Positions 9,763-51,770 of a DNA stretch of 64,000 nucleotides are shown piece by piece. The number at the start of each line of letters is the position of its first letter. The first letter of the stretch is position 1. The stretch is from Cellulophaga baltica (lineage in GTDB: Bacteria; Bacteroidota; Bacteroidia; Flavobacteriales; Flavobacteriaceae). The notes beneath the pieces were generated by a model that saw nothing but the letters and a program-made list of their open reading frames with translations, made no database searches and was not told where the DNA came from. The translations under genes were made by a program, and so were the position numbers. The DNA is taken from assembly GCF_018861125.1 (NCBI RefSeq), contig NZ_JAHKQN010000019.1:62001-126000 (forward strand). Reading direction: 5' to 3'.

Positions 9763-9764
9763 GA

Positions 9765-11173: not shown

Positions 11174-11256
11174 TACAATTTTTAAAAGAGAAAAGAATGA
11201 TTATTCTATTACGGCTGTTGATGCTGTAAATCTTAAAATTATCATAACGATATGGA

Positions 11257-11287: not shown

Positions 11288-11298
11288 CGATTGTTCAA
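11279..11298. promoter_or_regulatory. palindromic operator candidate over the -33 element
   Basis: Perfect inverted repeat TTGAACAA-ACGA-TTGTTCAA. The -33 TTTG lies inside it, so a bound dimer would block the promoter. No regulator gene is in the pyrimidine operon, and I did not see a second copy elsewhere in the non-coding DNA of the window. Confidence 0.55.
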
Positions 11299-11579
11299 TT
11301 TTTGCGTTTAATTGTTTTTGAAACATTAAATTCAATGAATATGTGAAAATATCTAATTAAATTTAAGAAATCTTAATTTACCTTGAATACTGTTTAATGA
11401 TTTTCTGTTTTCTTTGAGATAGTGTTTTTGTTTTTTTGTGCAAGACTTTTTAGTTGCGAATTGTTATTTTGAGAACTACAAAAGAAATGAATTGACAGTT
11501 AGTAAAACTCTACATAACTATTGAGGTATAGAATTTCTCTGAATTTTTAATGAAAATAGAATAGAGGAAGAAAGATTAA

Positions 11580-12623: not shown

Positions 12624-12659
12624 TAGTAGCTTATACGAGTTTTATAGTGTGGATAAATA

Positions 12660-12692
12660 CAAAAGTATACTTTTTTAAAATTATTGATTCAA
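12660..12692 (-). promoter_or_regulatory. promoter of the lacI-family gene
   Basis: On the minus strand a -33 TTG (12692-12690) lies 22 bp from a -7 TACTTTTG (12667-12660), matching the Bacteroidota pattern. The start codon is about 35 bp downstream. Confidence 0.6.
12661..12674. promoter_or_regulatory. palindrome AAAAGTATACTTTT at the lacI promoter
   Basis: Perfect 14-bp palindrome covering most of the -7 element. LacI-family regulators bind even palindromes with a central step like this, so autoregulation is plausible. This is inference from position only. Confidence 0.4.
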
Positions 12693-12791
12693 GTTTGTTT
12701 TACTTGAGATACATAAAATACCTAAAAAAGCATTTATTTTGAGTTTTAGACTAAATTGTAATTAATTTTTTGTGAAATAAATTATGATAAT

Positions 12792-12816
12792 AATAAATAA
12801 TTGTCAATTATTTATT
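12792..12816 (-). terminator. AT-only hairpin at the end of uxaC
   Basis: A 12-bp inverted repeat AATAAATAATTG / CAATTATTTATT with a single central base, overlapping the uxaC stop codon. It has only one G-C pair, so as a terminator it would be weak; it may simply reflect AT-rich sequence. Confidence 0.3.
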
Positions 12817-25487: not shown

Positions 25488-25663
25488 ATTTTTTAATTCA
25501 GTTTGGGCTCTGGTCAAAATTAAAAATGCATATTATTTAATACGTTATTTTTGGTTGAACAGTATTTATCTATAGTTAATTCGTTTGTTTGTGTCGATGA
25601 CTAAATACCATTAATTATAAAGTTTTTTCTTACATAATTATAAGATAACTTCTACAATAACGT

Positions 25664-34466: not shown

Positions 34467-36527
34467 ATGAGAAACTCCATTACATTACTTTTTATACTTA
34501 TTTTTAGTCTTTTACATGCGCAAGAGAATAGCATGCAAAAAGGTTTTAGCATGTTGGAGGTAGGTGATTTTCAAGAAGCAGAAGTGTTTTTTGATTCATA
34601 TTTAAAAACTGACCCTGATAATAAAACAGCAAAACTGTGTTACGGTAGAGCAGTAGGTTTAAGTGGTGAGCCAGAAAAAGCTAATAAAATTTTTGCAAGT
34701 CTACTAAAAAAGTATCCTCAAGATTTTGAGGTTCAAATAAATTATAATGAATCTTTTCTTTGGGCAAAAAAATATTTAGTAGCCAAACCTTTATATGAAA
34801 AGCTAGCAAAAGAAAACCCCGATAAATTTGGTGCTGTTTTAGGTTATGCAAATACTTTATCAAACTTAAAGGAATATCCTAAAGCTCTAGAAGTCGTAGA
34901 ACAAGCAATTGCTCTACAGCCAGAAAATGAAAGTGCTAAAGTTTCTAAAAAGTATATGAATCTTGGTTTTGCAAACTATTATGTAAATAAGCAAGAATAT
35001 AAAAAGGGTCTAAAGTTATTAAATGAAATTTTTGTTGATTTTAAGGAAGATAAAGATGCGCTTTTAAATATCGCAAATGTTCACTTAATCATGAAAAATT
35101 CTGATAAAGCTATTGAAACATATAAACGATATGCTACTAGTCCTAAAGATTCTATTACAGCTTTAAACGGAATTGTTTTAGCTCATCATATTGGAGAAGA
35201 TGATAAAACTGCTTTGAAAATTTCAGAATTTACAGTAGAAAAAGTTTATAAACTTGCTGATGATGAATTATTAGAGAAAACCTATAATAGATATGTTCAA
35301 GCTTTAATATGGAATAACAAATACAAAATAGCGAGAGAAGAAATTGCTTTATTGAAAGAAAAATACCCTGACAGAAATTGGGTTTCTGCGTTAAGTGCAA
35401 CTTACGGTATGTATACAGCAGATTTTAAATTGAGTTTATCTAATTATGATGATATTTTAAAAAGAGATAGTGCTTCTTTTGATGGCAATTTGGGTAAAGC
35501 CAATGCATTGTTTGCTTCTGATAAAATAATACCTGCATACCAAGCAGCTTTTCAAACTCTCAAAGTATTTAAAGGTCAGAAAGATGCTTTAGGTTTTATA
35601 GAAAAATTAAACATTAAATACACACCTTATGTAGAAGAACATGTAGCTTATACTTTTGATAATGGTGATAATGTCGCATTTTCAAGTACAACAAATTTTA
35701 ATGTACCTATTACTACAAAATTAAATACAACCTTAAGTTATCAGTTTAGGACTACAGATAATTCTGTTACAATAAATAGTGCCAGTACGCATGTTTTAAT
35801 TGCAGGAATATGGTATAAGTTATTGCCTAAAACAACTGTTAAAGCTTCTTTGGGTATTAATAATTCTAGTTTTTCAGGTGAATCGTATGTGCAACCTGTT
35901 ATTGATGTTAAATTGGAAATGCAACCTTTCAAGCTTCAAAATTTAACTTTAGGGTATACACGTGAATTACAAAGTTTTAATGCAGAGTTAATTGAACGCG
36001 AAATTGTAATGAATCATTTTGGATTAAATTATAATTTGGGCACCAATTTTAAATTGGGATGGTATACACAATTAATGCACACGCAACAGTCTGATAATAA
36101 TGTTAGAAACATATTGTTTACATCGTTGTATTATAACTTATTTAAGAAGCCAGCTTTCAAATTCGGATTGAATTTTCAATACATCACTTTTCAGGATCAA
36201 GTGCCAACAATTTACTTTAGTCCTGAAAAGTATATGGCTTTTGAGTTATTTGGAGATTTACGAGGTAATTTCTCAGAAAAGACCACCTATATGTTAAGTG
36301 CAGCTTCTGGTTTACAGAAAGTTGAAGACGATGATTTTTCTGTAATTTTTAGAGCAGAAGCAGGGGTGAAGCATCAATTTAATAAAAGATGGAGTGCCGA
36401 TTTTTATGCGAAATACAGCAATATAGCCTCAGCAACTGCAGCAGGTTTTGAGTTTACTGAAATTGGTTTTAAAGTGAAATGGCTCTTTTTAAAAGAACCG
36501 TTATTTTATAAAAATATAAAAAAATAA
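34467..36527 (+). CDS. TPR-repeat outer-membrane beta-barrel protein, probable polysaccharide exporter
   Basis: A 686-residue exported protein: signal peptide MRNSITLLFILIFSLLHAQ, then about 350 residues of tetratricopeptide repeats (LEVGDFQEAEVFFDSYLKTD, KEYPKALEVVEQAIALQPEN and others), then a C-terminal beta-barrel of roughly 300 residues with alternating amphipathic strands such as TTLSYQFRTTD and AGIWYKLLPKTTVKASLGIN. The order TPR then barrel is that of BcsC, PgaA and YaiO-type proteins, which pass polysaccharide through the outer membrane. It is divergent from the flippase gene. The export role is inferred from architecture and neighbours. Confidence 0.8.
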   Translation: MRNSITLLFILIFSLLHAQENSMQKGFSMLEVGDFQEAEVFFDSYLKTDPDNKTAKLCYGRAVGLSGEPEKANKIFASLLKKYPQDFEVQINYNESFLWAKKYLVAKPLYEKLAKENPDKFGAVLGYANTLSNLKEYPKALEVVEQAIALQPENESAKVSKKYMNLGFANYYVNKQEYKKGLKLLNEIFVDFKEDKDALLNIANVHLIMKNSDKAIETYKRYATSPKDSITALNGIVLAHHIGEDDKTALKISEFTVEKVYKLADDELLEKTYNRYVQALIWNNKYKIAREEIALLKEKYPDRNWVSALSATYGMYTADFKLSLSNYDDILKRDSASFDGNLGKANALFASDKIIPAYQAAFQTLKVFKGQKDALGFIEKLNIKYTPYVEEHVAYTFDNGDNVAFSSTTNFNVPITTKLNTTLSYQFRTTDNSVTINSASTHVLIAGIWYKLLPKTTVKASLGINNSSFSGESYVQPVIDVKLEMQPFKLQNLTLGYTRELQSFNAELIEREIVMNHFGLNYNLGTNFKLGWYTQLMHTQQSDNNVRNILFTSLYYNLFKKPAFKFGLNFQYITFQDQVPTIYFSPEKYMAFELFGDLRGNFSEKTTYMLSAASGLQKVEDDDFSVIFRAEAGVKHQFNKRWSADFYAKYSNIASATAAGFEFTEIGFKVKWLFLKEPLFYKNIKK

Positions 36528-36534
36528 TTGATAT

Positions 36535-36580
36535 AAATAAGCTTAAAAATTGCCAATATTGGTGGTTTTTAAGCTTATTT
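36535..36580. terminator. bidirectional terminator between barrel and STAS genes
   Basis: Outer arms AAATAAGCTTAAAAA (36535-36549) and TTTTTAAGCTTATTT (36566-36580) pair perfectly over 15 bp, and an inner CCAAT/ATTGG adds five more pairs. The two genes converge here and the STAS stop codon lies in the right arm. Confidence 0.7.
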
Positions 36581-36889
36581 ATTTTCTAAAACACAATTGT
36601 TTTCAATAATATAATGGGTTTTTGTTTTTTGCATAAATGCTTTAATAACTTCATTATTATGTTCTAAAAAGGTGATTTTTTTATTTTCTAAAGTAGCTTC
36701 TTTATACAACCTCTCAAGGTTTTTAGCTGCAACCTTATCCATACTGTTAAGCTTCTGAATATTAATAATAACAGTATTGTTAGCTTGTAATAAGTTTTTT
36801 ACGTGATTTCTAATTAAATTTGCATTTCTCCAATTTAATTCTCCTTTTAAGGAGTGAATTCCATTTTCTTCATTTATTTCAATCGGCAT
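36575..36889 (-). CDS. STAS-domain protein lacking the usual phospho-serine
   Basis: A 104-residue single-domain protein of the anti-sigma-factor-antagonist type. The fold pattern is clear: IHSLKGELNWRNANLIRNHVKNLL, then TVIINIQKLNSMDKVAAKNLERLYKEA, then KKITFLEHNNEVIKAFMQ. In SpoIIAA-like proteins the sequence after the second strand is D-S-S/T-G with a serine that is phosphorylated; here it is D51-K52-V-A, so the standard site is gone. It may bind a partner without Ser/Thr phosphorylation. The gene lies 96 bp after the LytTR regulator gene in the same direction and is the last gene of the signalling cluster. No partner anti-sigma kinase is in view. Confidence 0.75.
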   Translation of the reverse strand: MPIEINEENGIHSLKGELNWRNANLIRNHVKNLLQANNTVIINIQKLNSMDKVAAKNLERLYKEATLENKKITFLEHNNEVIKAFMQKTKTHYIIENNCVLENK

Positions 36890-36985: not shown

Positions 36986-37699
36986 CTATAAAAGATTCAG
37001 TCTTCTCATAAGTTCCGGTCTGTTAGATCTACTTATAGGAATGACGTTTTTTTCTATTAACACACTGTTATCTTCAATATCTATAATTTTAGTAAAGTTG
37101 ATGATAAATGACCTGTGTATTTGTAAAAATGTACTTTCGGGCAATTTTTCTTTTATACTTTTTAAAGTATTATGTACGCGGTATGTTTTCTGAATAGTTT
37201 TTACATCAATATAATCGCCCTTGGCTTCAACAACCAAAATTTCATTTAATTTAAGTTTTATGAGCCTACGATCAATATTTATATAAATATCTTCTTCAGT
37301 ATTGGTAGATTGAAGTGTTTTACTCTCTACGGTTTTGGCAGAATTTTTTAAAGCTTTTTTAATTTTAATAATAGATTTTTCAAAACGGTCTTGCGTTATC
37401 GGTTTTACCAAATAATCTACAATGGGCTCGTATTCATAAGCTTCAATAGCAAAATCAGTATCTGATGTGGTAAGCACTATTCTTGGCGGGTTTTTTAACG
37501 TTTGTATAAAGTCAATCCCTGTAAATCCTGGCATATGTATATCTAGAAAAATGACATCAACAGTATTTTGATTCAAAAACTTAATTGCTTCCATAGCATT
37601 TGAGAATGAATCAATAATATTTAAATCTGAAATTTTAGAACATAACTGCTCAACAATAGCTCTTGCAGTTGCTTCATCATCTACAATGATACAATTCAT
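36986..37699 (-). CDS. LytTR-family response regulator
   Basis: A 237-residue regulator. The receiver (residues 1-120) has D7/D8, phospho-acceptor D53 in VIFLDIHMPGFTG, the Thr in IVLTTSDTDFAIEA and K in YLVKPI. The C-terminal LytTR DNA-binding domain runs from about residue 138, with ILVVEAKGDYIDVKT and STFLQIHRSFIINFTKI. Such proteins bind direct repeats in promoters. It follows the Hpt gene by 5 bp, so it is a natural phosphorelay output of the two histidine kinases upstream. Target genes are unknown; the adjacent glycan cluster and the regulator's own operon are candidates. Confidence 0.95.
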   Translation of the reverse strand: MNCIIVDDEATARAIVEQLCSKISDLNIIDSFSNAMEAIKFLNQNTVDVIFLDIHMPGFTGIDFIQTLKNPPRIVLTTSDTDFAIEAYEYEPIVDYLVKPITQDRFEKSIIKIKKALKNSAKTVESKTLQSTNTEEDIYINIDRRLIKLKLNEILVVEAKGDYIDVKTIQKTYRVHNTLKSIKEKLPESTFLQIHRSFIINFTKIIDIEDNSVLIEKNVIPISRSNRPELMRRLNLL

Positions 37700-37704
37700 A
37701 ATTG

Positions 37705-38025
37705 TTATAGGTTTTTAGTATAAGCGTCAATCTTCTCTAAGATAGTTGAAAATTTTGTATCTAGCTTCTTATCTCCCCTCAATAATTCCTCTTCATAGGT
37801 CACTGCTAATTTATAATCTTCTGTAAGGCTTAAAATATTTAGTTTGTGTTTTAATTTATGTACAATGTCAGCTGTTTCTTTTAAATTGTTGCTAGCAATT
37901 GCATTCTCATATTCTTTTTTTTCTAGGGGTATTTCTTCTTTTATGACAGAAATAAATTTTATTTCAAAAGCTTTATCATCACCAGCTAATTGTTTTATAT
38001 AATTTAAGTTTGGTTGTTGTTCCAT
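37705..38025 (-). CDS. histidine phosphotransfer (Hpt) protein
   Basis: A 106-residue all-helical protein with the Hpt signature TADIVHKLKHKLNIL; H56 is the expected phosphate carrier, with K59 after it. The usual Gly after HxLK is replaced by His60. It lies 1 bp after the second histidine kinase gene and 5 bp before the LytTR regulator gene. A stand-alone Hpt implies a multistep relay: kinase to a receiver, to Hpt, to a final receiver. The free REC protein encoded at 43186 and the REC-GT2 protein encoded at 24342 are possible partners in addition to LytTR. Confidence 0.85.
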   Translation of the reverse strand: MEQQPNLNYIKQLAGDDKAFEIKFISVIKEEIPLEKKEYENAIASNNLKETADIVHKLKHKLNILSLTEDYKLAVTYEEELLRGDKKLDTKFSTILEKIDAYTKNL

Positions 38026-38026
38026 A

Positions 38027-39082
38027 CTATTTTTTTAAAGTGAAATAAAATATTGTTCCTTGATCTTCAGCTGAAGATAACCATATGTCACCTTCATAAA
38101 TATTAACTACTTTTTTTACTAAAGCAAGACCAATACCTGTTGCGTTAGCTTTATTTTCAAGCTTTTTAAACATCGTAAAAATACTTTCTTGATGTTTTTT
38201 TGCAATGCCTTTACCATTATCTGTTACGCTAAATTTCCAAAACTCATTTTCGTTTATACAATCAATAGTAATCACACCCTTTTCGCGATGTTCTGTAGCA
38301 GTAACAGCATTGGTAATTAAATTTTTAAATAATTGTTCTATTTTATATTTTTCAACATACATGGTAGGTAAACTACCTATTATATCAATAGTAATTGTAT
38401 TTGGGTAATATATAGTTTTTTTAATTTCATCAATCAATTTATTTAAGTCAAGATGAATTTTTGGCTCTTCAAGAGAATCTATGGCTGAATGCCTTAAAAT
38501 TCCTTCAATTAATGAATCCATTTTTTCGAGATTCTGTGATACTAAGTTACAATTTTCTTTACTTTCATTAGAAAACTTTTCTTTTTCTTCTTCTAGTATC
38601 CAGCACATTAATGCATTAATGTTTCTAATAGGCGATTTTAAATCGTGTGAAACCATATGAGCATAATCTTTTAAAGCTTCATTTTGACGCTCTAGATTTT
38701 TGACCATCGCTTTGTTTTCAGCAGTCATTCTAACTATATCTTTAGCTTGTTTTTCAATTCTATTTACTATTTCTATAGGATCTAAAGCTAAACTTATTTT
38801 GTTATTATCTTCAATTACATTCTTAGAATCGTTTAATATGTTAATCGCTTTTTTAAGAATATTTAAAGTCTTTTTTTGACTTTCAGTTTCAGCACGTAAA
38901 TCTTTATTTGCTTTATATAATTCGTCGGAGCTTAATTTCATTGCTCTTTGTATCATTTCAGATTTTTCTTCATAATCTGAATATGACTTATCAATTGCCT
39001 CTATAAAAAGTACAAGTTCCTTAGAGTCTTTTAGATTCTCGGGTATGTATTTTCTAATTTGTCTTTTTAAGAGTGAGTGCAT
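38027..39082 (-). CDS. soluble histidine kinase linked to the FIST protein
   Basis: A 351-residue kinase with no membrane helix. Residues 30-140 are helical and coiled-coil-like (EEKSEMIQRAMKLSSDELYKANKDLRAETES). H146 in YAHMVSHDLKSPIRNINAL is the phosphorylation site, and the ATPase domain has NLITNAVTATEH, VTDNGKGIAKKH and ATGIGLALVKK. It has no sensor domain of its own, so it must be controlled by a partner. Its ATG overlaps the stop of the FIST gene by one base (TAATG), which strongly suggests translational coupling and a FIST-kinase pair. Its H-box region is very like that of the PAS kinase encoded two genes upstream, so the two probably share partners. Confidence 0.93.
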   Translation of the reverse strand: MHSLLKRQIRKYIPENLKDSKELVLFIEAIDKSYSDYEEKSEMIQRAMKLSSDELYKANKDLRAETESQKKTLNILKKAINILNDSKNVIEDNNKISLALDPIEIVNRIEKQAKDIVRMTAENKAMVKNLERQNEALKDYAHMVSHDLKSPIRNINALMCWILEEEKEKFSNESKENCNLVSQNLEKMDSLIEGILRHSAIDSLEEPKIHLDLNKLIDEIKKTIYYPNTITIDIIGSLPTMYVEKYKIEQLFKNLITNAVTATEHREKGVITIDCINENEFWKFSVTDNGKGIAKKHQESIFTMFKKLENKANATGIGLALVKKVVNIYEGDIWLSSAEDQGTIFYFTLKK

Positions 39083-40215
39083 TATTCGCTAATAAGGGTT
39101 AAAGTCATTGTTTGGTTGTGCAATTTACATTCATTTCGGTTAGAAAATGGTGCTAATTCGCCATAAGAATAAAAACCTGTTGTTACAGATTGATTGCCAG
39201 TAACTTCAATTACTTCCTCAATTTCTTCTTCTATTCGTTGGTTCATAACTAGTTTGCGGCCAATACAGCTTACTAATAATGATAATTCTGGTTTGTGCTT
39301 TCTATTACGCATGGCATACGTTGCGGCTTTTGATGCTCCTTCAGCAATATCATCGACTGAAGACATCATTAATTGGACGGAAGCATTTTCTGGTACATCA
39401 CCAGCTAAAATCATGGTGTTGTTTTCTTCATCAATATTTAAGATTGTTCTAATTATTGATTTATCGCTACCTTCAACTTTAAGGTTTAAAGGGTAGAATA
39501 GTGCTGCTTGAGGTAATTCATTTGCTTTATCACCTAAATACTTTTTGTATAAATTTAATGCCGGTTTGTGATCAAGTTCATATAATATATTCCCAACTGA
39601 TTTTGTGACAATTCGTTCGGGTCCAAAAGCCTTCCAACCACCATAATTTGCACATGAAATTTCTAAGCTTTCACCGTAAAAACCTATAGCTACAATTTCT
39701 CCTTCTTTTGGGCTTTCATTATATGAAGCTAGTGTTTTTTTAAATCGAGCACCATCACCACATAAACCACCTGATATTTTTATGTTAGTACCAATGTTTT
39801 TTTCTAAACCTTCTATTAAAGAACTACCATTAACAGAACTTCCTTCTGATATTATAAAAATATGTTTTAAATTTTCTTTAGAAAATTTAGTTGCTAAAGC
39901 TTCACCTACTTTTTCTGAATTATTATCAAACTCTGTTATGTTTTTTGAATGGACTATATAATTACTTTTTTCGAACTCAATAGCTGTTATTACAATACTA
40001 TCATCATGTACATTTTCATTTATAATTTCACCTGATGTAGAACCAAAAACAATATTTCCTGAGGGAAATAATTCTTTTACATCATTATAAATAGTTGGTG
40101 ACTCTAATAAGAACCGATTGCCAAATACTAAAACTAAAGGGTCTTTTAATTCCTGTTTTTCAGAAATAAAATTCCATTTATTACCTTTTAATTTATGAAC
40201 TTGAACTGTTTTCAT
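39082..40215 (-). CDS. FIST-domain sensor protein (NosP-like)
   Basis: A 377-residue soluble protein with both FIST parts. FIST_N spans about residues 20-210 with NIVFGSTSGEIIN, KISGGLCGDGARFKKTLASY and VAIGFYGESLEI. FIST_C spans about 215-375 and ends with VTTGFYSYGELAPFSNRNECKLHNQTMTLTL, the usual FIST_C terminus. FIST proteins are small-ligand sensors; one subgroup, NosP, binds heme and nitric oxide and controls a partner histidine kinase. Heme binding cannot be proven from sequence. The gene sits 2 bp after the H-NOX-linked kinase gene and overlaps its own likely kinase gene by one base. Amino-acid sensing is the main alternative. Confidence 0.88.
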   Translation of the reverse strand: MKTVQVHKLKGNKWNFISEKQELKDPLVLVFGNRFLLESPTIYNDVKELFPSGNIVFGSTSGEIINENVHDDSIVITAIEFEKSNYIVHSKNITEFDNNSEKVGEALATKFSKENLKHIFIISEGSSVNGSSLIEGLEKNIGTNIKISGGLCGDGARFKKTLASYNESPKEGEIVAIGFYGESLEISCANYGGWKAFGPERIVTKSVGNILYELDHKPALNLYKKYLGDKANELPQAALFYPLNLKVEGSDKSIIRTILNIDEENNTMILAGDVPENASVQLMMSSVDDIAEGASKAATYAMRNRKHKPELSLLVSCIGRKLVMNQRIEEEIEEVIEVTGNQSVTTGFYSYGELAPFSNRNECKLHNQTMTLTLISE

Positions 40216-40217
40216 AA

Positions 40218-42572
40218 TTATTTTTTTAATGAAAAGAAAAAAGTAGTTCCTACACCAATCTCACTTTCTAACCAAACTTTACCTTCGTATAAGTCAATGA
40301 TTTTTTTTACAATTGATAAGCCTATACCCGTTGAGCGTTCTTTATTTCCGACAGATTGAAATATTTTAAATATTTTTTCATGGTATTCTTTTGGAATACC
40401 TACACCGTTATCTTTTACGCTAAATTCCCAATGCGTTGGTGTTTCGATACATCCAATTTCTACAAGTCCTTTTTCTCGTTCTATATGAACAACAGCGTTG
40501 CTTAAAAAGTTTTGAATAAGTTGGTGTATTTTAGTTCGGTCAGCACAAATTGTTGGTAATTTGTTAGTTACCACAATTTCAACATGATCAGGAATAAATA
40601 TAATATCAGTAATTTCTTTAATTACTTCATTAACATCAACAGATGTGTTTACAATATTTTCACTGTTAATAGTTGAGTATTTTAAAATACCATCAATTAA
40701 ACTGTCCATGGCTTCAACCTTCTCTTGCATCATATTTAAGTTATACTTACCAGGATCATCTAAAACATCTTTATAATCTTCATTCAACCACGAACAAAGT
40801 GCATTAATGCTTCGTAATGGCGATTTTAAATCATGTGATACTATATGAGCATATTCTTGTAAACCTTTATTACTCTGTTCTAATTCTTTAAGTAAAGTTT
40901 CTTTTTGATTTTCTAATGTTTTTTGTTCAGTAATATCAAAATGGATGCCAATTGAACCAATTACTTTTCCTGTAACATCATGTTTAGGTGCTGCACTAAC
41001 TAACCAGTGTTTCACAGTGCCGTCAATATGTTTTATATCTATTTCATATGAATCAGATTTTCCTGTACGTCTACTAGCAATTTTGTTTTCAAGTAAATCT
41101 TTATTAATGACTTGAATTACATCAGTTGCTTTTTTACCAATAAGTTCTTCTTCTGAATAGCCTGATATCTTACAGAAACTTTGATTTACCAATTGAATAA
41201 TTTGGTTATTGTCGATTTCAATTAACCCGAGGTTCATGTTAGCAATAATACTGCTGTATTTTTCTTTTTCTGATTCTAGGTTTATCTTGTAATTTCTAGC
41301 AATTGTAACATCATTATAAGTCCATAAGTGGCCAGCATAAACATTACTATTGAATATAGGAATATAGTCACGTTCAATAATTCTACCATCAATCATTTCA
41401 ATTTCATCGGCTAGAACAAGATTTTTGTTTTTAGTAACTTCTTCAATTCTTTTTATTTCTCTTTCGGGATTTTTAAAAAGATGCTTAATCTTTTCTATAG
41501 CTACAACACAATCATAACCCTTTAACCCCTCTTTATTAATTTTAACATCAAAAAGATCATGAAACATTTCATTGGTTAGAGTAATTTTTCGGTTTTCATC
41601 TTCAACAAGAATTCCTGTGTGTAAGTTTGCAATAAGTTTTGTTAATCTGTTTTTAGAGTCTACTAACTGCTTTTCAGCTTCAATTGTCTTTGTAATATCT
41701 TCAATTAAACCAACTTTGTAATCAATACTCCCGTTTTGGTTTCTAACAGCACTAATAGCAGTTTTACCAAGAATATGGCCGCCAGCTTTTTTTATGTATT
41801 TATATGTGATTGTAAAATTATCAATGTCACCTTTTTCCAATTGATTAAACAAAGATTCTCTTTGTTTTGGGTCTTCAGGTTTTGCAATGGTATCAATTTT
41901 AATATTTTTCAATTCAGACTCAGAATATCCTAACAAACGAATAAAAGAGTTATTTACCTTTATAATATCACGATTTTGTACTAAAACAATTGCTAATGGG
42001 GAATTTTGAACAATTATATCTAATTGCTTTCTTTGTTCACTTAAAAGTTTTTTTATTTCTGTTTCTTGATTAATATCTCTTATAACTCCTTGAGCTCCAA
42101 TTGGTTTTTGGTTGTTGTCATAAATTAAGCTTGCGTTAATTTCAACATATTTTTCAACACCTTTTGTTATAACTAATTTGGCCCGATAATTTTTAACAAT
42201 ACCAACTTCAATTAATGCTTTAAATGAAGTATGAGTATAATCAATATAATTTTTATGAATAAACCGGCCTAAATTTAATTTTTCTTTAGTATTATCAGCC
42301 TGTAAAAACTCTTTAGCAGAAGAGTTCATTTTTATAACATTACCAGTTAAATCCATTACAACGTAAGGGTCAATTAGATTAACAAAGACACCATCAAGTT
42401 GCGTTGATTTTTCAGTTAATGTTTCTTCAAGCTTATTATTTGCTTCTTTTAAATGCAAAGTAACATCGTAGAGCTCTTTAGATTTTTCTTCTAAGATTCT
42501 TTCGGCTTGCTTACGTGCCTTGACTTGCCTTGCAAGTGCTTTTTTTAATAATGTAATTTCTTTACTATCCAT
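40218..42572 (-). CDS. multi-PAS soluble histidine kinase linked to H-NOX
   Basis: A 784-residue kinase from the ATG at 42572; a TTG 15 bp upstream is possible. The N-terminus is a coiled coil (KKALARQVKARKQAERILEEK) and is followed by about four PAS domains, some with PAC parts (IGAQGVIRDINQ, VGLIEDITKTIEAEKQ, IGSIGIHFDITEQ). The H-box YAHIVSHDLKSPLRSINAL has the phospho-His near residue 580. The ATPase domain has NFLSNAVVHIE, VKDNGVGIPKEY and STGIGLSIVKK. There are no membrane helices. The start codon lies inside the end of the H-NOX gene (8-base overlap), the typical arrangement of an H-NOX with its kinase. PAS ligands are unknown. Confidence 0.93.
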   Translation of the reverse strand: MDSKEITLLKKALARQVKARKQAERILEEKSKELYDVTLHLKEANNKLEETLTEKSTQLDGVFVNLIDPYVVMDLTGNVIKMNSSAKEFLQADNTKEKLNLGRFIHKNYIDYTHTSFKALIEVGIVKNYRAKLVITKGVEKYVEINASLIYDNNQKPIGAQGVIRDINQETEIKKLLSEQRKQLDIIVQNSPLAIVLVQNRDIIKVNNSFIRLLGYSESELKNIKIDTIAKPEDPKQRESLFNQLEKGDIDNFTITYKYIKKAGGHILGKTAISAVRNQNGSIDYKVGLIEDITKTIEAEKQLVDSKNRLTKLIANLHTGILVEDENRKITLTNEMFHDLFDVKINKEGLKGYDCVVAIEKIKHLFKNPEREIKRIEEVTKNKNLVLADEIEMIDGRIIERDYIPIFNSNVYAGHLWTYNDVTIARNYKINLESEKEKYSSIIANMNLGLIEIDNNQIIQLVNQSFCKISGYSEEELIGKKATDVIQVINKDLLENKIASRRTGKSDSYEIDIKHIDGTVKHWLVSAAPKHDVTGKVIGSIGIHFDITEQKTLENQKETLLKELEQSNKGLQEYAHIVSHDLKSPLRSINALCSWLNEDYKDVLDDPGKYNLNMMQEKVEAMDSLIDGILKYSTINSENIVNTSVDVNEVIKEITDIIFIPDHVEIVVTNKLPTICADRTKIHQLIQNFLSNAVVHIEREKGLVEIGCIETPTHWEFSVKDNGVGIPKEYHEKIFKIFQSVGNKERSTGIGLSIVKKIIDLYEGKVWLESEIGVGTTFFFSLKK

Positions 42573-43107
42573 GTTGGACAATATCAAATTTAACCTCAGT
42601 CCCGTCTTCTTTTAGAAGTTCATAGCTAATAGTTGCTTCACCATTAAAATGTTCAAATGTTTTTTCAATTAAACCGTGTGCTAGTCTATATAGACCTCTA
42701 GAAGAACTATATATCATAGATAATGAAGTTTCGGTTTTGTCTAATATTTTAAATGTAGGAAGTTCTGCGTCAGGATAAAGTTTTTTTACATGCACATGAA
42801 TATGGTCTTCAATTGCGTATAAAAGATTAATTGGATTAGTATAGTTTTCTATTACTTCAGGGTGAGAAGTACCTAAACCATTGAACAGGTAAAGACCAAA
42901 AGTATAAATTAGGTCACCCATAGGGGCTTTTACCTCATCACTCAAATTGGTAATAAGACTAATCATTTCATTAAAGTCATAGGTGCCAACAGAAGTATAA
43001 ATTCCTTCCGAGGCTAAATTAGAATTTTCTATAATAGTGTCAACGACTTCTAAACCAAATTTAGATTCAACCATTTCAAGAAACTCTGTAAAAACAACAC
43101 CTTTCAT
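42565..43107 (-). CDS. H-NOX heme nitric-oxide-binding sensor protein
   Basis: A 180-residue stand-alone H-NOX domain, starting MKGVVFTEFLEMVESKFG as usual. The proximal heme ligand is H104 in DHIHVHVKKLYPDAELPTF by alignment with soluble guanylate cyclase and Thermoanaerobacter H-NOX. The heme propionate motif YxSxR is complete at Y133, S135 and R137. The distal tyrosine that gives O2 binding in the Thermoanaerobacter protein (Y140) falls on L142 here, so an NO-selective sensor is predicted. The end of the gene overlaps the start of the PAS kinase gene by 8 bases, making that kinase the likely partner. Cytoplasmic. Confidence 0.95.
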   Translation of the reverse strand: MKGVVFTEFLEMVESKFGLEVVDTIIENSNLASEGIYTSVGTYDFNEMISLITNLSDEVKAPMGDLIYTFGLYLFNGLGTSHPEVIENYTNPINLLYAIEDHIHVHVKKLYPDAELPTFKILDKTETSLSMIYSSSRGLYRLAHGLIEKTFEHFNGEATISYELLKEDGTEVKFDIVQHG

Positions 43108-43185: not shown

Positions 43186-43587
43186 CTATGCCTTCACTAG
43201 CTCATTTGTTTCCCAATACTCAAAAACGGTTTTTAATTTAGTTTCGTAATCTTCATATTTTAAGGGTTTTATTACGTAGCCAGCAATTCCAATTCTATAG
43301 CATTCTAACAAATCAGCTCTGTTTTCTGATGTTGTAAGAATGATTGTAGGAAGATATTTGTATTTTTCATCTGCCTTTAAAATACTCAAAAATTCAATAC
43401 CGCTCATTCGTGGCATATTTAAATCTAAAAGTATTATATCTGGTAATTTAGTAGCATTTTTTAAAACCTCCAATGCTTGTTCCCCATTTTTAGCTTCTAT
43501 GATATTATGCTTTAATTGAAGTTTTGAAACAGTACGTTGTAATTTCATTGTCTCAATTGTATCGTCTTCGATAAATAATACATCCAT
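43186..43587 (-). CDS. stand-alone receiver-domain response regulator
   Basis: A 133-residue CheY-like protein: E7/D8/D9 at the start (LFIEDDT), phospho-acceptor D55 in IILLDLNMPR, Thr in TIILTTSENR and K in GYVIKPLKYEDY. It has no output domain. The gene is 78 bp upstream of the H-NOX gene in the same direction and is probably the first gene of the signalling operon. It could be the middle receiver of a kinase-REC-Hpt-REC relay. A CATCTTTG element close before the start codon (43605-43612) resembles the -7 consensus but with no clear -33. Confidence 0.9.
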   Translation of the reverse strand: MDVLFIEDDTIETMKLQRTVSKLQLKHNIIEAKNGEQALEVLKNATKLPDIILLDLNMPRMSGIEFLSILKADEKYKYLPTIILTTSENRADLLECYRIGIAGYVIKPLKYEDYETKLKTVFEYWETNELVKA

Positions 43588-45809: not shown

Positions 45810-48800
45810 ATGAAAAAAAATTACTTTAAAAAGTGCCTGCTTTTAGGTGCTTTAAACTTTCTTGTTTTAACTTTTGTGCATGCTCAAGTTCCTGATTATT
45901 ATAATGGAACTGATATTACTGCAACTGGAGAAGATTTAAAAACGAACCTTTCAACTTTAATTACGAATACTCATACTACGGAGTTAAGTTATACTCCTGG
46001 TGTTTGGGACGCATTAAAGCAAACTGATCTTGACCCTACAAATTCTAATAACGTTTTGTTAATATACGGGTATGATGATACTGATTCAGACTTAACAAAT
46101 GATAGAAGTAGATCAAAAGATTCAAACGGTGGGAATACTGGAGATTGGAACCGTGAACATACGTATCCAAAATCATTAGGCAACCCTAATTTAGGAGAAT
46201 CTGGTCCAGGTTCTGATGCGCATCACTTACGTGCTTCTGATGTGCAATTTAATAGTACAAGAAGTAACAATCCTTACATAGATGATTCTGGCGTTGCAAA
46301 AGCAATTAATTCTGGTTTTTATCCTGGTGATGAATGGAAAGGCGATGTTGCTCGTATGATGATGTATATGTATGTGCGCTATGGCGATCGTTGTTTACCT
46401 AACACTGTAGGCTTAGGTGACTCTACGTACAGTTCAGATATGCGAGATATATTTTTAGAATGGAACGCTGAAGACCCTGTTTCTCAAGTAGAAATTAATA
46501 GAAATATTCTTCTGGAGGGTATTCAAGGGAATAGAAATCCTTTTATTGATAACCCAGCATTTGCTACAACAATTTGGGGAGGACCACAAGCAGAGAATAG
46601 ATTTGAGACTACTTCTACTGATACTGAAGCGCCAACAGCTCCTGAGAGTTTAGTAATTGCAAATACTACTGATACTGAAACAGTTTTATCATGGGATGCA
46701 TCAACAGATAATGTAGGTGTTATAGCTTATCAAATATTTCAAGACGGAACACAAATAGCATCTTCTACTGAAACTACTTATACGGTTACTGATTTAATAG
46801 CGGATACAGAATATACTTTTTACGTTGTAGCAATTGATGCTTCAAGCAATACTTCAGGTAATAGTAATGAAGAATCAGTTACAACACTTGAAGCTACAGA
46901 TATTCCTGCAACAGGTGATTACATTGTTTTTCAAGGTTATGAAAGTAGTATTGAAGATACTTGGGCATATACACAGTCTCCGGTTGCATGTGCCGATGGT
47001 ACTGATATTTGGGATGTAGTGACAAGTGTTGGTTCAATAACAACACCAAATTCTGGAATTAACTTTTTTGGTATTCAAGATTTAGAAGGTAATTGTGGTA
47101 CAGCTGATGGAGGTACACTAGCCTTTAACAGTGTAGATGTTTCAACTTTTGAAGATGTTACCTTGTCATTCAGTGTAAATGTAGATGGTTTTGATGTGGC
47201 AAATGGTGATGTTATTACGTATGAAATTTTACATGACGGAGTTTCTCAAGGTATAGTAACTATTACAGTAGATAGTCCTTATAGTACTTCAGGATGGGAA
47301 AAAATTACAGCATCTGTTCCTAATACGGTTAGTTCAGTAGCTTTAAATTTATATGTAAAACAAAATGGAGGTAGTGATTATGCTGGTTTTGATGATGTTT
47401 TATTACAAGGTACTTCTGTTGCAGCCGGTAGTTCTGATGAAGGACTTTTGATTAATGAAGTAGATGCTGATCAAGATAGTACTGATGCATCTGAGTTTAT
47501 AGAGCTTTTTGATGGTGGTGCTGGTAACACATCTTTAGATGGTTATGTGGTTGTATTGTATAATGGTAGTTCAGATGTTAGTTATGATGCTATTGATTTA
47601 GATGGTTATACGACAGATGAGAACGGCTATTTTGTAATAGGATCAGAAAGTGTTGCTAATGTTGATTTAATTGAATTTACAACAAACGGAATACAAAACG
47701 GAGCTGATGCTGTTGCTCTTTATTTAGGTGATGTTACGAGTTTTTCAACAGGAACAGCAGTGCTTGCTGATGACACTTTAATTGACGCCTTAGTTTATGG
47801 TACAAGTGATGCTGACGATGAAGGTTTGCTAGTTTTATTAAATTCAGGAGAAATACAAGTTGATGAAAATGAAGATGGTAATGGAACTTTAAATTCAATG
47901 CAAAGATCACCTAATGGTTCAGGAGGCTTAAAAAGTACTAGTGCTTATGCTATGTCAACTCCGACACCAGGAGCCGAAAATTTATCAACTACAACCGTTG
48001 AAGATAACGAAGTGCCTACAACGCCTGAAAATATTGTAACATCAAATATTACAGGTTCAAGTGTAGATTTATCATGGGATGCTTCAACAGATAATGTAGC
48101 TGTTACTGAATATCAAATATATAATGGTACTGAACTTGTTGCAACAACAACAGAAACATCAATAACTATTGAAAATTTAGAAGCTGTTACTGCATATAGT
48201 TTTACGGTTATAGCAGTAGATGCTACAGGTAATATTTCAGAAAGTTCAGATGGTATTGAGTTTACAACAACTACTGTGACTATCAATTCTGAGAGCGCCT
48301 TATTAATTACTGCCTTATACGATGGTCCACTTACAGGTGGAGTACCTAAAGGTGTTGAGTTGTATGTAACGGAAGATATAGATGATTTAAGTGTTTATGG
48401 ATTAGGTTCTGCAAATAATGGCGGTGGTACTGATGGTGAAGAATTCACTTTTGATGCAGTCGCAGTTACAGCGGGTACATTTATATATGTAGCTTCAGAA
48501 AGTGTAGAATTTGCAAATTTCTTTGGTTTTGAACCTACATATACTTCTGGTGCTATGGCAATAAATGGTGATGACGCTGTTGAGCTTTTTATGGATGGCG
48601 TAGTAGTTGATGTTTTTGGTGAAATAGATGTTGATGGTTCTGGTCAAGCATGGGAATATACCGATGGCTGGGCCTATAGAGTTGAAAATACTGTTCCTGA
48701 TACTGCTTTTGCAATTGAGAATTGGACTTTCAGTGGAGCTGATGCATTAGATGATCAAATAGATAATGCAACAGCAAGCTTGCCAGTTCCTCTTGCCACT

Positions 48801-51770
48801 TATACATATACGGTATCAGATTCTGTAACACTTTTAATAAATGAGGCTGATGTAGATAATACTAGTACTGATGCATTAGAATTTGTAGAACTTTACGATG
48901 GCGGAACAGGTAATACACCTTTAGATGGCTATGTAATCGTATTATATAATGGTAGTGATGATTTAAGTTATAATGATGCTATAGATTTAGATGGTTATGC
49001 TACTGATGAGAATGGTTATTTTGTAATTGGCTCTGAAAGTGTTGAAAATGTCGATTTAGTAGCTTTTACAACAAACGGATTGCAAAATGGAGCAGATGCA
49101 ATTGCACTTTATCAAGGTGATGCTACGAGCTTTCCAAATGATACGGCAATTTTAGTAGATGATACTTTAATTGATGCTTTAGTTTACGGAACTGACGATG
49201 ACGATGATGCTGGTTTATTAGTCTTATTGAATTCTGGTGAAGCACAAGTTAATGAGGCGGGTGAAGGTGATAAAGACAATCACTCAATGCAACGTATTGC
49301 TAACGGTACAGGTGGTTTAAGAAACACATCTACATACACACAAGCTTTTCCTTCTCCGGGTACTGAAAATGGAGCGGCAGTAATAGCTCCAGGAACTATA
49401 ACTATTCTTGAAGCAAGAAATACTGAAGATGGTGAGTTAGTAACTATTTCAGGAGTATTAACAGTTGCAGATGAATTTGCAGGTTCTGCTTATATTCAAG
49501 ATGCAACTGCAGCGATAGCAATATTTGACCAAACTGTTCATGGAGAGGGAAATTTTATGGTAGGCGATTCTATTACACTTACAGGAACTAGAAGTTCATA
49601 TAGCGATCAAATACAAATTAGCACTGTTGTTAGTGTTGAAAATAATGGTTTGCCAGCAACTCCAATAGAAGTACAGACAATTACATTGGCAGAATTAGGT
49701 GATCATCCAGCGGAATTGGTAAGAGTGGTAAGTCCTTCTTTTCCTAATCCAGGAGATATTATATTCGGAGGTTCAAACTTTGAAATTACTGATGCTAGTG
49801 GAACAGGAGAATTACGTATAGATATTGATGTTGAGGCATTAGTTGGTTTAGGGCAACCAGATTCTTGTGATGAGATTATTGGTGTTGTAGGTCGTTTTTA
49901 CGAAATATATCAATTATTACCACGTATGAAATCTGATATGGCTTGTGCTGGTGAGTATGTTCCATTAGGAAGTTCTGTTACCATTTCAAAAGAAAAAACA
50001 TTTGATGTTGCGGCATGGAATATTGAGTGGTTTGGTGATGCTTCAAATTCTCCGGCTTTGGGTTATGACAATCCTGATCAAGTTCAAAAAGATAGTGTTA
50101 AAGTAGTTTTACAATCTTTAGATGCTGATATCTATGCTGTTGAAGAAATTTCAGATGAAGAGTTGTTTGCGACTTTAGTGGGTGAAATGGAAGGTTATGA
50201 TTACGTATTGTCAGATGCTGTTTCGTATCCTGATGATACTTCTGGGACACAACAAAAACTAGGCTTTATATATAATACAGCTACAGTTTCGGTAGTAGAA
50301 ACAAAACCTCTTTTGGCAAGTATTCATCCATATTATAACGGTGGTGATGAGTCTGCCTTAGCTGATTACCCAGTAACAGATAAAACTCGTTTTTACGCTA
50401 GTGGTCGTTTACCATTTTTAATGACTGCTGATGTTACTATTGAGGGTGTAACTAAACAGTTTGATATTGTTGCTTTACATGCAAGAGCAAACAGTTCAAC
50501 AACTACGCAAGAGCGTTACGATATGCGTAAATATGATGTTGAGATTTTAAAAGATACTCTAGATGTACAATACGGTTCAAGAAACTTAATTGTTATGGGG
50601 GACTATAATGATGATGTTGATTTTACAGTGGCTAGTGATGTTTCTTCTGCAGTAAGTACTTTTGAGGCTTATGTAAATGATCCAACTAATTACAACATTC
50701 TTACGAGTGTTTTAAGTGATAATAATTACCGTTCTTATGTGTTTAGTGAGAATATGATTGACCATATTATGGTGTCAGAAGAAGTTAGTCCTTATTATAT
50801 TGAAGAAACTGTAAGTGTAGGGTATGAGTTTTATGATGCAGATTTTTCAACTACAGCTTCAGATCACTTTCCGGTATTTGCACGTTTTCTGTTAGAAGAG
50901 TTTAAAATAAATGAAATTACGGCTACAGCTACAAATTGTGATGGTGAAGATGCTACTGCAACTGTAAGTGTGTCTGGTGGTGTTTCACCGTATTCTTATG
51001 AATGGAGTGACGGACAATTAACTGCAACAGCAACTGATTTAGTTGGTGGTGAATATAGCGTAATTGTTACAGATGCATCAGGAGAAAGTTTAACTACTGA
51101 AATTACTATTGAAGAAACTACTGCAATAGAAATTACACAATCAGAAGATACTAAAGTGTATGCTGGTTATGGTGATGAGTCTTGTGCAACTATTGGTGTT
51201 ACTAGTGTAACTGGTGGTGTAGCCCCTTATACGTATGCTTGGAGTACAGGGGAAACTACTGAGGAGATTTCAGCTTGCCCAGAAGAAACTACTACGTATA
51301 CAGTAACGGTAACTGATGCTAATGGGTGTTATATTGAATCTGATATTGTTGTTGAGGTTGAAAATGTAGTTTGTGAAACTAAAGGTAGATATACCAAAAT
51401 AGCAATGTGCTATAAAGGTCGTTCTGTTTGTGTATGGGAATATTTAGTGAAGTATTATGAAAGATACGGTTATACTGTAGGTTCTTGTACTGATGATGGT
51501 TCTGGCTCTGGAGAATTAATTGTTTCAGATGTATATCCTAATCCATTTTCATCTTATGTAGTGGCTAAAATAGAAGCTTCAGAAAGATCAAAAGCAACAT
51601 TTGTAATATATAACGGTTACGGTAGAATTGTTTATAAATCTAATAAGACTTTATCTACAGGAGAAAATAAAACAGTATTACCATTATGGTACTTAAGTAG
51701 AGGATATTATTACTTGAAAATTTATGTTGATGGTGATTTGAAAAGCACGCAAACACTTATGAATAAATAA
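45810..51770 (+). CDS. giant T9SS-secreted protein with two nuclease domains
   Basis: A 1986-residue modular exoprotein. Signal peptide (to about residue 25); endonuclease-I domain, residues about 30-255, with WNREHTYPKSLG and DAHHLRASDVQFNSTRSN; FN3 domain (270-358); a beta-sandwich-like region (370-535); a lamin-tail-like domain (545-730); second FN3 (733-822); two more lamin-tail-like domains (829-1005, 1008-1190); an OB-fold-like part (1194-1375); an endonuclease/exonuclease/phosphatase domain (1396-1690) with NIEWFG, AVEEISD, GDYNDD and SDHFPVFARF; two SprB/PKD-like repeats (1700-1850); a short Cys-containing part; and a T9SS tail with SDVYPNPFS and a lysine at the end. It should cut extracellular DNA, perhaps RNA or phosphodiesters too. 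Single gene, own terminator downstream. Confidence 0.92.
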   Translation: MKKNYFKKCLLLGALNFLVLTFVHAQVPDYYNGTDITATGEDLKTNLSTLITNTHTTELSYTPGVWDALKQTDLDPTNSNNVLLIYGYDDTDSDLTNDRSRSKDSNGGNTGDWNREHTYPKSLGNPNLGESGPGSDAHHLRASDVQFNSTRSNNPYIDDSGVAKAINSGFYPGDEWKGDVARMMMYMYVRYGDRCLPNTVGLGDSTYSSDMRDIFLEWNAEDPVSQVEINRNILLEGIQGNRNPFIDNPAFATTIWGGPQAENRFETTSTDTEAPTAPESLVIANTTDTETVLSWDASTDNVGVIAYQIFQDGTQIASSTETTYTVTDLIADTEYTFYVVAIDASSNTSGNSNEESVTTLEATDIPATGDYIVFQGYESSIEDTWAYTQSPVACADGTDIWDVVTSVGSITTPNSGINFFGIQDLEGNCGTADGGTLAFNSVDVSTFEDVTLSFSVNVDGFDVANGDVITYEILHDGVSQGIVTITVDSPYSTSGWEKITASVPNTVSSVALNLYVKQNGGSDYAGFDDVLLQGTSVAAGSSDEGLLINEVDADQDSTDASEFIELFDGGAGNTSLDGYVVVLYNGSSDVSYDAIDLDGYTTDENGYFVIGSESVANVDLIEFTTNGIQNGADAVALYLGDVTSFSTGTAVLADDTLIDALVYGTSDADDEGLLVLLNSGEIQVDENEDGNGTLNSMQRSPNGSGGLKSTSAYAMSTPTPGAENLSTTTVEDNEVPTTPENIVTSNITGSSVDLSWDASTDNVAVTEYQIYNGTELVATTTETSITIENLEAVTAYSFTVIAVDATGNISESSDGIEFTTTTVTINSESALLITALYDGPLTGGVPKGVELYVTEDIDDLSVYGLGSANNGGGTDGEEFTFDAVAVTAGTFIYVASESVEFANFFGFEPTYTSGAMAINGDDAVELFMDGVVVDVFGEIDVDGSGQAWEYTDGWAYRVENTVPDTAFAIENWTFSGADALDDQIDNATASLPVPLATYTYTVSDSVTLLINEADVDNTSTDALEFVELYDGGTGNTPLDGYVIVLYNGSDDLSYNDAIDLDGYATDENGYFVIGSESVENVDLVAFTTNGLQNGADAIALYQGDATSFPNDTAILVDDTLIDALVYGTDDDDDAGLLVLLNSGEAQVNEAGEGDKDNHSMQRIANGTGGLRNTSTYTQAFPSPGTENGAAVIAPGTITILEARNTEDGELVTISGVLTVADEFAGSAYIQDATAAIAIFDQTVHGEGNFMVGDSITLTGTRSSYSDQIQISTVVSVENNGLPATPIEVQTITLAELGDHPAELVRVVSPSFPNPGDIIFGGSNFEITDASGTGELRIDIDVEALVGLGQPDSCDEIIGVVGRFYEIYQLLPRMKSDMACAGEYVPLGSSVTISKEKTFDVAAWNIEWFGDASNSPALGYDNPDQVQKDSVKVVLQSLDADIYAVEEISDEELFATLVGEMEGYDYVLSDAVSYPDDTSGTQQKLGFIYNTATVSVVETKPLLASIHPYYNGGDESALADYPVTDKTRFYASGRLPFLMTADVTIEGVTKQFDIVALHARANSSTTTQERYDMRKYDVEILKDTLDVQYGSRNLIVMGDYNDDVDFTVASDVSSAVSTFEAYVNDPTNYNILTSVLSDNNYRSYVFSENMIDHIMVSEEVSPYYIEETVSVGYEFYDADFSTTASDHFPVFARFLLEEFKINEITATATNCDGEDATATVSVSGGVSPYSYEWSDGQLTATATDLVGGEYSVIVTDASGESLTTEITIEETTAIEITQSEDTKVYAGYGDESCATIGVTSVTGGVAPYTYAWSTGETTEEISACPEETTTYTVTVTDANGCYIESDIVVEVENVVCETKGRYTKIAMCYKGRSVCVWEYLVKYYERYGYTVGSCTDDGSGSGELIVSDVYPNPFSSYVVAKIEASERSKATFVIYNGYGRIVYKSNKTLSTGENKTVLPLWYLSRGYYYLKIYVDGDLKSTQTLMNK
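47444..47990 (+). repeat. first copy of a duplicated lamin-tail-like module
   Basis: Encodes a module starting LLINEVDADQDSTDASEF that matches, nearly residue for residue, the module encoded from 48829. Shared stretches include YVVVLYNGS, DENGYFVIGSESV and TLIDALVYGT. It lies inside the nuclease gene. Confidence 0.85.
48829..49375 (+). repeat. second copy of the lamin-tail-like module
   Basis: Encodes LLINEADVDNTSTDALEF and the same later blocks as the copy at 47444 (YVIVLYNGS, DENGYFVIGSESV, TLIDALVYGT). The copies are in frame and about 1.39 kb apart, so internal gene duplication is clear. Confidence 0.85.

Follow-up and report, generated by a model that had tools for sequence, protein, structure and literature searches.

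A putative two-input phosphorelay with an optional FIST-kinase cassette in H-NOX operons of flavobacteria

We analysed a stretch of 64,000 nucleotides from Cellulophaga baltica (contig NZ_JAHKQN010000019.1, positions 62,001 to 126,000), referred to below as the window, which carries an operon encoding an H-NOX protein, a FIST protein, two histidine kinases (HK1 and HK2) and the components of a phosphorelay. The operon probably constitutes a two-input phosphorelay in which the FIST and HK2 genes form an optional plug-in cassette. Judged by gene content across the family, the system is real, widespread and more complete than was first described. In the model that we propose, H-NOX would sense nitric oxide (NO) and control HK1, and FIST, reading some signal, would control HK2 by contact with a distinct module at the HK2 N terminus. 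HK1 and HK2, whose catalytic cores are related, would both phosphorylate a small stand-alone receiver protein (REC), from which the phosphate would pass to an Hpt-like phosphotransfer protein and on to a REC-LytTR response regulator (LytTR), which would change transcription, perhaps of surface or biofilm genes. The sequence itself shows the gene content, the acceptor residues, the unity of the cassette, the tie between module and FIST, one sensor swap and the kinship of HK1 and HK2; all binding and phosphotransfer steps, NO as the ligand of H-NOX, the direction of control and the target genes are inferred.

Organization of the operon and the relay

The open reading frames of the window confirm an operon of six genes, all on the minus strand, whose order (H-NOX, PAS kinase, FIST, second kinase, Hpt, REC-LytTR) is that given by a first-pass annotation of the same sequence (Table 1). 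The tight packing reported there is likewise seen in the coordinates: the H-NOX gene overlaps HK1, taken from its ATG, by eight bases, FIST and HK2 share a single base, and the remaining gaps, all within the reported limit of 5 bp, are 2, 1 and 5 bp. The annotation, which named these six genes correctly, overlooked one gene at either end, namely a REC gene (78 bp ahead of H-NOX) and a STAS gene (96 bp past LytTR). Its description of the operon as flavobacterial agrees with the nearest named relatives, which are from Aquimarina (61%) and Flavobacterium (60%). A promoter scan found 31 sites compared to 43.4 in shuffled sequence, i.e. no excess.

A kinase that lacks a receiver domain does not normally phosphorylate an Hpt protein directly. 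As the Hpt thus needs a preceding receiver, the overlooked REC would supply the Asp step; the proposal that both kinases feed one Hpt stands as far as convergence on one relay is concerned and is incomplete as to a direct feed, for which a receiver is required in between. With REC as the presumed first Asp step, the gene set can be read as a His-Asp-His-Asp relay that would run from H-NOX/HK1 and FIST/HK2 to REC, from there to Hpt and finally to LytTR.

The conservation of this arrangement was examined in a family sample of 299 genomes. The 119 H-NOX loci annotated from it and from related material (the window, 57 loci linked to FIST, 44 of the 51 unlinked H-NOX matches, 15 loci of the same genus, and L097 and L099) comprise 70 with the order HNOX-HK1-FIST-HK2-Hpt (cassette operons), 41 with the order HNOX-HK1-Hpt (core operons) and eight others, which are contig ends, broken copies or different designs. 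Matches that seemed partial, weak or confined to short contigs were left out (G074, G083, G093:C2, G096, G129, G157:C28 and G292); G074 actually sits on a 133-kb contig and was later read as locus L233. The gene immediately preceding H-NOX is REC in 109 of the 111 operons (70/70 cassette, 39/41 core), and LytTR is the next gene after Hpt in 66/70 cassette and 40/41 core operons. The phosphoacceptors are D55 of REC (109/109), H56 of Hpt (111/111) and D53 of LytTR (106/106), with the HDLK motif present in 111/111 HK1 and 70/70 HK2 sequences, and all four relay acceptors occur in one operon. Locus L102 has the order HNOX-HK-REC-Hpt-LytTR, which places REC between kinase and Hpt, and its Hpt counterpart passes the Pfam cut-off (30.7 bits). 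In L018, the kinase beside FIST and H-NOX contains HK, REC (97 bits) and an Hpt-like region (21.7 bits, cut-off 24.6).

Several loci depart from the common design in their own ways. L018 (genome G269, 7467-14198) consists of an NtrC-type regulator, FIST, H-NOX and one kinase of 1156 amino acids (HNOBA-PAS-HK-REC with an Hpt-like end), and both sensors appear, from this layout, to share that single kinase. L190 (G522) has a third kinase, which contains a GAF domain, between HK2 and Hpt (4212-5570), and this relay may take three inputs. A remnant of the LytTR C terminus directly follows HK2 in L049 (6578-6694), where Hpt is gone, which amounts to an internal deletion.

FIST-HK2 as an optional two-gene unit

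Within the family sample, H-NOX is found in 105 genomes, FIST in 87 and both in 68 (Fisher p 3e-23, relatedness not corrected). FIST lies within 3 kb of H-NOX in 58 of the 105 H-NOX genomes, on the same strand in 58/58, which greatly exceeds what chance would produce; secondary tandem FIST matches were left off the typed list used for this count, by which no genome was dropped. Half a cassette was seen in one of the 119 loci, L066, where H-NOX and FIST are truncated as well. Of the 18 genomes of the window's own genus, 17 have H-NOX, the window's among them; the match in G013 sits on a contig of 3 kb and was not taken at length, and 13 of the 15 further loci carry the cassette, and the other two (L124 and L125) lack exactly FIST-HK2. 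Judged by these layouts, FIST-HK2 is an optional two-gene unit inserted between HK1 and Hpt. The eighteenth genome, G011, the sole one without an H-NOX match, has a copper nitrite reductase above the cut-off that is absent from the window's genome.

When presence of the cassette is mapped on a tree of REC, H-NOX, Hpt and LytTR (104 rows), it has to change 22 times, and at least eight of these changes are forced by well-supported branches. The distances of FIST+HK2 correlate with those of the relay (Mantel r 0.73, with 0/999 permutations as high) compared to 0.87 for a within-relay control and 0.56 for FIST+HK2 versus HK1, and the FIST+HK2 tree shares 24/60 splits with the relay, the same as the control. 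Such a pattern is consistent with a largely vertical history in which the cassette was lost repeatedly, gains being possible as well.

The layout extends beyond the genus and family. A sample of 247 genomes from the phylum contains 16 with H-NOX, and three of the ten loci taken have the cassette layout, one (L188) belonging to a different family within the class and two (L189 and L190) to a different genus within the present family; the layout is also present in Flavobacterium petrolei (L099). A search of genome contigs for related loci returned three loci only. In genome G067, locus L139 has the order HK-FIST-HK2 with an operon-type FIST and no H-NOX or Hpt nearby, and the H-NOX operon of the same genome (L101) is without the cassette.

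A natural sensor swap and the FIST-partner module of HK2

The best evidence on the partner of FIST and on the place of the HK2 core comes from a natural swap. Loci L058 and L041, from one genus (group g46), are closely similar in REC (88% identical), H-NOX (88%), HK1 (77%), Hpt (77%) and LytTR (92%), and the HK2 cores (from residue 155/121) are 72% identical. Their FIST proteins, however, match at 24% over 194 residues, and the N-terminal parts of HK2 have no meaningful similarity; in the DNA alignment, likeness returns just ahead of the phosphoacceptor helix. The second, type-B FIST is also found in L038, from another genus (48% to L058), and no more than these two of the 299 genomes match it strongly. 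This single close pair suggests that the partner of FIST is the input region of HK2 and that the HK2 core is part of the fixed relay.

The kinship of the two kinases is in line with this division. HK2 (HATPase 80 bits in Pfam, HisKA match under the cut-off) has HK1 as its nearest kinase in its own genome (46%; the next is at 38%). In a kinase tree built from 23 of the 70 cassette operons, ten core HK1s, ten of the 23 motif-recognised own-genome kinase loci and four FIST-adjacent kinases, with L139 counted among HK2, HK1 and HK2 fall on one side of a branch (Shimodaira-Hasegawa-like approximate likelihood ratio test, SH-aLRT, 87) from the ten other own-genome kinases, and HK1 alone is supported at 99. 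The phosphoacceptor regions of HK1 and HK2 share YAH(I/M)VSHDLKSP...W..ED. Among FIST-adjacent kinases outside H-NOX operons, 14 of the 16 with a recognised motif have SHEIRTP and two do not; six more have no recognisable motif.

The N-terminal stretch of HK2, which we termed the FIST-partner module, was made into a profile and compared with 8204 reading frames of loci centred on H-NOX or FIST. Apart from one chance-level match (E 0.26), it recovered the operon HK2s and 19 other kinases, each FIST-adjacent and including hybrid kinases with unrelated cores (a count made from the match listing with copies merged, in a set of loci biased by having been gathered around H-NOX and FIST). We therefore also searched 80 chosen whole genomes, 46 of the 87 FIST-positive and 34 of the 212 FIST-negative ones. 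The module occurs in 28/46 and 0/34 of these, respectively, and 34 of its 36 matches start no more than 900 bp after a same-strand FIST match, the two exceptions being L233 and one weak match (E 6e-4). The 18 FIST-positive genomes without it comprise, by our sorting, two with type-B FIST (G135 and G283), one with the fused system (G269), one with a contig-cut FIST (G123) and 14 with tandem or other FIST proteins. The module is thus tied to one branch of FIST rather than to all FIST proteins. On the profile, none of the 111 HK1s, the four NosP-adjacent kinases or the two type-B HK2s rises above noise.

Pfam and NCBIfam give nothing above cut-off for five examples of the module, a PDB search with it has a best E of 0.017, which we read as chance coiled-coil matches, and tblastn against plasmids found no match, though the profile detects the module in Azospirillum. 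What appears to be new here is this unnamed module and its tie to FIST. On balance, we lean towards the view that some 85 residues mark kinases that heed one FIST branch across phyla (flavobacteria, other Bacteroidota and Azospirillum) on varied cores, and that FIST plus module behaves as an exchangeable cartridge, gained, lost or replaced together with the kinase input region over a fixed REC-Hpt-LytTR relay.

Covariation was assessed in 63 of the 70 cassette operons, and in 55 after trimming eight long-branched loci, with relay divergence controlled. FIST is the protein that the HK2 N terminus follows most closely (rank partial r 0.54 in the full set), and the HK1 and HK2 cores track each other (0.54 full, 0.62 trimmed). 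We rejected as evidence the higher Pearson value for FIST and the HK2 N terminus (partial r 0.88), a single locus (L058) driving it. As the covariation is modest, our argument leans on the swap and the module instead.

Evidence weighing against the two-input relay

The following results count against the two-input relay. (i) The strongest correlation of H-NOX in the full set is with the start of HK1 (0.50), a relation that drops to 0.35 after trimming and is not robust; in the trimmed set, H-NOX tracks FIST (0.60) and REC (0.59) above the HK1 start, and FIST tracks H-NOX (0.60) nearly as well as the HK2 N terminus (0.61). (ii) The 106-residue Hpt-like protein of the window scores 17.7 bits, under the Pfam cut-off of 24.6. 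(iii) Three cassette loci (L034, L035 and L037) have no LytTR beside Hpt, and tblastn finds none in the locus, so that the output there differs or lies elsewhere; L049 keeps FIST-HK2 and has lost Hpt and most of LytTR. (iv) L233 keeps an HK2-type kinase with no FIST in the operon, beside an H-NOX that by eye seems to be missing its proximal-His motif. (v) Seven of the ten phylum-sample H-NOX loci do not have the cassette layout. (vi) The nitrite reductase gene nirK is associated neither with H-NOX (15/53 versus 90/246, p 0.27) nor with linked FIST (7/58 versus 8/47, p 0.58), and an internal NO source is therefore not indicated.

The loci without LytTR would suit two kinases with separate outputs, REC and Hpt-LytTR belonging to different branches and being merely co-resident. 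The position of REC beside H-NOX in all cassette and nearly all core operons, its place between kinase and Hpt in L102, the fusion of HK, REC and an Hpt-like region in L018 and the established reluctance of a receiver-free kinase to phosphorylate an Hpt directly speak against it. We consider separate outputs very unlikely, even though a bare REC can act alone, three loci are without LytTR and, in the passages of PMC8738867, Legionella Hnox2 acts with a kinase and a CheY-like REC without a known Hpt. The first-pass notion of two sensors, each with its own kinase, on one relay is upheld by the conservation of the operon, the behaviour of the cassette and the swap, and more weakly by covariation.

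The FIST protein is distinct from NosP

The first-pass annotation took both sensors to be candidate NO sensors, by analogy with NosP, a group of FIST proteins. In such a dual NO system, FIST would be a NosP-like heme protein, with both sensors reading NO over different ranges. NosP-group FIST proteins are described as binding heme and NO and controlling adjacent kinases (passages of PMC12570481), FIST is encoded in the H-NOX operon, being strongly linked to H-NOX, and C317 and H366 are common to the window FIST and NosP.

Both FIST domains of the window protein, PF08495 and PF10442, are above cut-off (151.2 and 114.4 bits). On the NosP model NF041558, however, it scores 56.1 bits against a cut-off of 450, compared to 500.5 bits for a NosP named as such in RefSeq (L204), and we rejected the identification as NosP. 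None of the 247 Bacteroidota genomes has a NosP above the cut-off, in a search that missed the window's own 56-bit match and is thus blind to weak ones. The four NosP histidines H217, H268, H279 and H361, replaced by G, Y, I and S in the window FIST, are present in 12, 10, 10 and 10 of 12 NosP or NosP-like proteins and in 0/70 operon FISTs; other FIST proteins (n=37) have His there in 0, 1, 0 and 0 cases. (The NosP/NosP-like set holds three proteins named nosP and nine not so named, two of which were scored, at 338 and 357 bits; the comparison covers conserved NosP positions.) The fifth conserved position, H366 (H377 in NosP), is kept in 68/70 operon FISTs, 12/12 NosP or NosP-like proteins and 36/37 other FISTs; with this distribution it is a generic residue, and we rejected it as evidence for heme. 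In a quick tree with flagged long branches, NosP forms a clade (support 100) and the window FIST lies in a separate one (99). Azospirillum lipoferum 4B carries both NosP (L204) and a window-type FIST (39% identical), so that the two are paralogues.

The kinases point the same way, with the four NosP-adjacent ones tested having no match to the HK2 module; on NahK-type models, HK2 scores 80.2 of 400 bits and HK1 77 of 1500 and 75.8 of 400 (NF041831/NF041832). The claim of two different NO sensors is thus not borne out for FIST, which is outside NosP by profile, tree and four histidines. Its sequence gives no support for a second NO sensor, heme binding via another residue being conceivable, and dual NO sensing is in our estimate unlikely.

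In a narrower form of the two-input relay, the ligand of FIST would be heme or another small molecule, and FIST would gate the response to NO via HK2, as an AND condition or a veto. This form is possible, if doubtful. It is in keeping with a cassette that is optional and whose sensor is replaceable, with CdpA of V. cholerae, a FIST protein reported as heme-responsive (passages of PMC8846402), and with the proposal in passages of PMC4398556 that FIST proteins bind small ligands. The residues that might serve it in the window FIST, C152 and C363/H366, are, however, candidates only. C152 is specific to the operon type, being found in 67/70 operon FISTs and in 2/37 others, both of operon type.

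A PDB sequence search with FIST gave no convincing relative (best E 0.069), and an AlphaFold model from four sequences, with a mean predicted local distance difference test (pLDDT) score of 47, was unusable. In a separate FIST group, between two and four divergent FIST genes stand in tandem ahead of a kinase (L143, L144, L152 and L153).

H-NOX and HK1

The window H-NOX passes the PF07700 profile with 129 bits (curated cut-off 25.5). The proximal heme His H104, P117, Y133 and S135 are kept in 111/111 operon H-NOX proteins, and position 137 of the YxSxR motif is Arg in 107 and Lys in four. These features support the earlier proposal of H-NOX as a candidate NO sensor, and H-NOX is probably such a sensor. 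The closest solved H-NOX structures in a PDB sequence search are 6bde and 6bdd (206 and 203 bits), which we take to be the Kordia algicida H-NOX, the PDB entries themselves carrying an aldolase name; residue 71 is Gly in the window H-NOX and 6bde and Ala in 6bdd. Passages of PMC7356049 cite work on Ka H-NOX. In L233 (G074, 7014-7562), an H-NOX homologue sits in the same type of relay with a proximal-His motif and SxR that look altered by eye.

HK1 has HDLKSP in 111/111 operons, and Pfam scores three PAS stretches in the window copy. Its length steps by about 128 residues across the 111 operons (about 400, 530, 655 and 790), and the PAS count tracks it, with one, two and three PAS domains at 403, 529 and 658 residues; PAS domains of HK1 thus seem to have been gained or lost singly.

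Features of the window and the neighbourhood of the operon

Table 1 Features of the operon and its surroundings in window coordinates
Feature	Position	Strand	Basis or remark
REC, stand-alone, CheY-like, D55	43186-43587	-	Pfam Response_reg 75.8 bits; proposed first Asp step
H-NOX sensor, H104 proximal His, YSSSR motif, Gly71 hinge	42565-43107	-	Pfam HNOB 129 bits
HK1, PAS repeats, HisKA, HATPase	40218-42572 (ATG); TTG upstream at 42587	-	Pfam
FIST sensor protein (not NosP), cassette gene 1	39082-40215	-	Pfam FIST 151, FIST_C 114 bits
HK2, cassette gene 2, catalytic core paralogous to HK1	38027-39082	-	Pfam HATPase
N-terminal FIST-partner module of HK2, HSLLKRQIRK...SY...SSDEL..AN	38727-39082	-	Unnamed in Pfam and NCBIfam
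Hpt-like phosphotransfer protein, H56	37705-38025	-	Pfam Hpt 17.7 bits, cut-off 24.6
REC-LytTR response regulator, D53, relay output	36986-37699	-	Pfam Response_reg 71.9, LytTR 68 bits
STAS, anti-sigma-factor-antagonist-like; likely associated, not core	36575-36889	-	Pfam STAS 40 bits
Terminator-like inverted repeat between operon end and convergent TPR gene	36534-36581	called on +	Pattern match only
Convergent TPR protein, C-terminal stretch barrel-like by eye, near exopolysaccharide genes	34467-36527	+	Possible output neighbourhood

Neighbours were counted within 9.5 kb of H-NOX, bounded by locus ends, in the 111 operons. Downstream lie an opposite-strand TPR protein (45 operons), a DUF6923 protein with a type IX secretion system (T9SS) sorting tail (37), a polysaccharide flippase (34) and a same-strand STAS gene (23). 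On the upstream side, 11 operons have a rubredoxin/nitrite-reductase-like protein. The window has the TPR-type neighbour, presumably YaiO-like, along with a flippase, a glycosyltransferase and a REC-glycosyltransferase. A surface or biofilm output is, from this neighbourhood, no more than plausible.

Three further genes or gene groups were noted. Close to the polysaccharide genes of the window, one gene (24342-25517) combines a receiver domain with a family 2 glycosyltransferase, and a secreted-looking protein of 1986 amino acids with repeats and, by eye, nuclease-like stretches is encoded at 45810-51770. In L023 (12023-15975), nitrate/nitrite-reductase-like genes are directly upstream of the relay, a minority trait.

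Comparison with known systems

The operon is compact, a likely NO sensor plausibly acting on one relay together with a second sensor, and it has natural presence/absence variants within one genus as well as a natural swap. This makes signal integration and sensing by a non-NosP FIST directly testable. The results also caution against naming every kinase-adjacent FIST an NO sensor, and the lasting interest of the system lies in a design that lets a sensor be plugged in and in the FIST-partner module.

In Shewanella oneidensis, H-NOX/HnoK and NosP are reportedly both inputs to one cyclic di-GMP (c-di-GMP) network, which differs from the window in its true NosP and its c-di-GMP output. The NosP-NahK pair resembles FIST-HK2 in that a FIST protein is encoded immediately upstream of a kinase (L204), and is unlike it in FIST clade, histidine set and kinase N terminus.

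The proximity of FIST to H-NOX has already been published as a genome-neighbourhood frequency for H-NOX 'group 1' (passages of PMC8738867), the representatives of which include Cellulophaga and Runella, both Bacteroidota (passages of PMC7108781). The frequency is given in a figure, and the accompanying passages contain neither gene order nor the REC-Hpt-LytTR relay, the cassette or the distinction between FIST and NosP. Titles and abstract openings yielded no paper about this operon, which does not prove that none has been published.

Legionella pneumophila lpg2459-2457 likewise brings together Hnox2, a kinase and a single-domain receiver (PMC8738867, PMC11237717); in the passages of these papers the downstream signal is described as unknown and the operon is without FIST. 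Convergence has a parallel in the LuxU system of Vibrio, in which, according to passages of PMC6769237, PMC4398556 and PMC8738867, FIST or H-NOX sensors beside kinases converge on one Hpt, the pairs being VpsV/NosP-VpsS in V. cholerae and H-NOX-HqsK in V. harveyi. The Vibrio kinases, as described there, are hybrids with their own receiver, the output is LuxO and the FIST protein is called NosP, whereas the window has a single operon, a separate REC, a LytTR output and a FIST protein that is not NosP.

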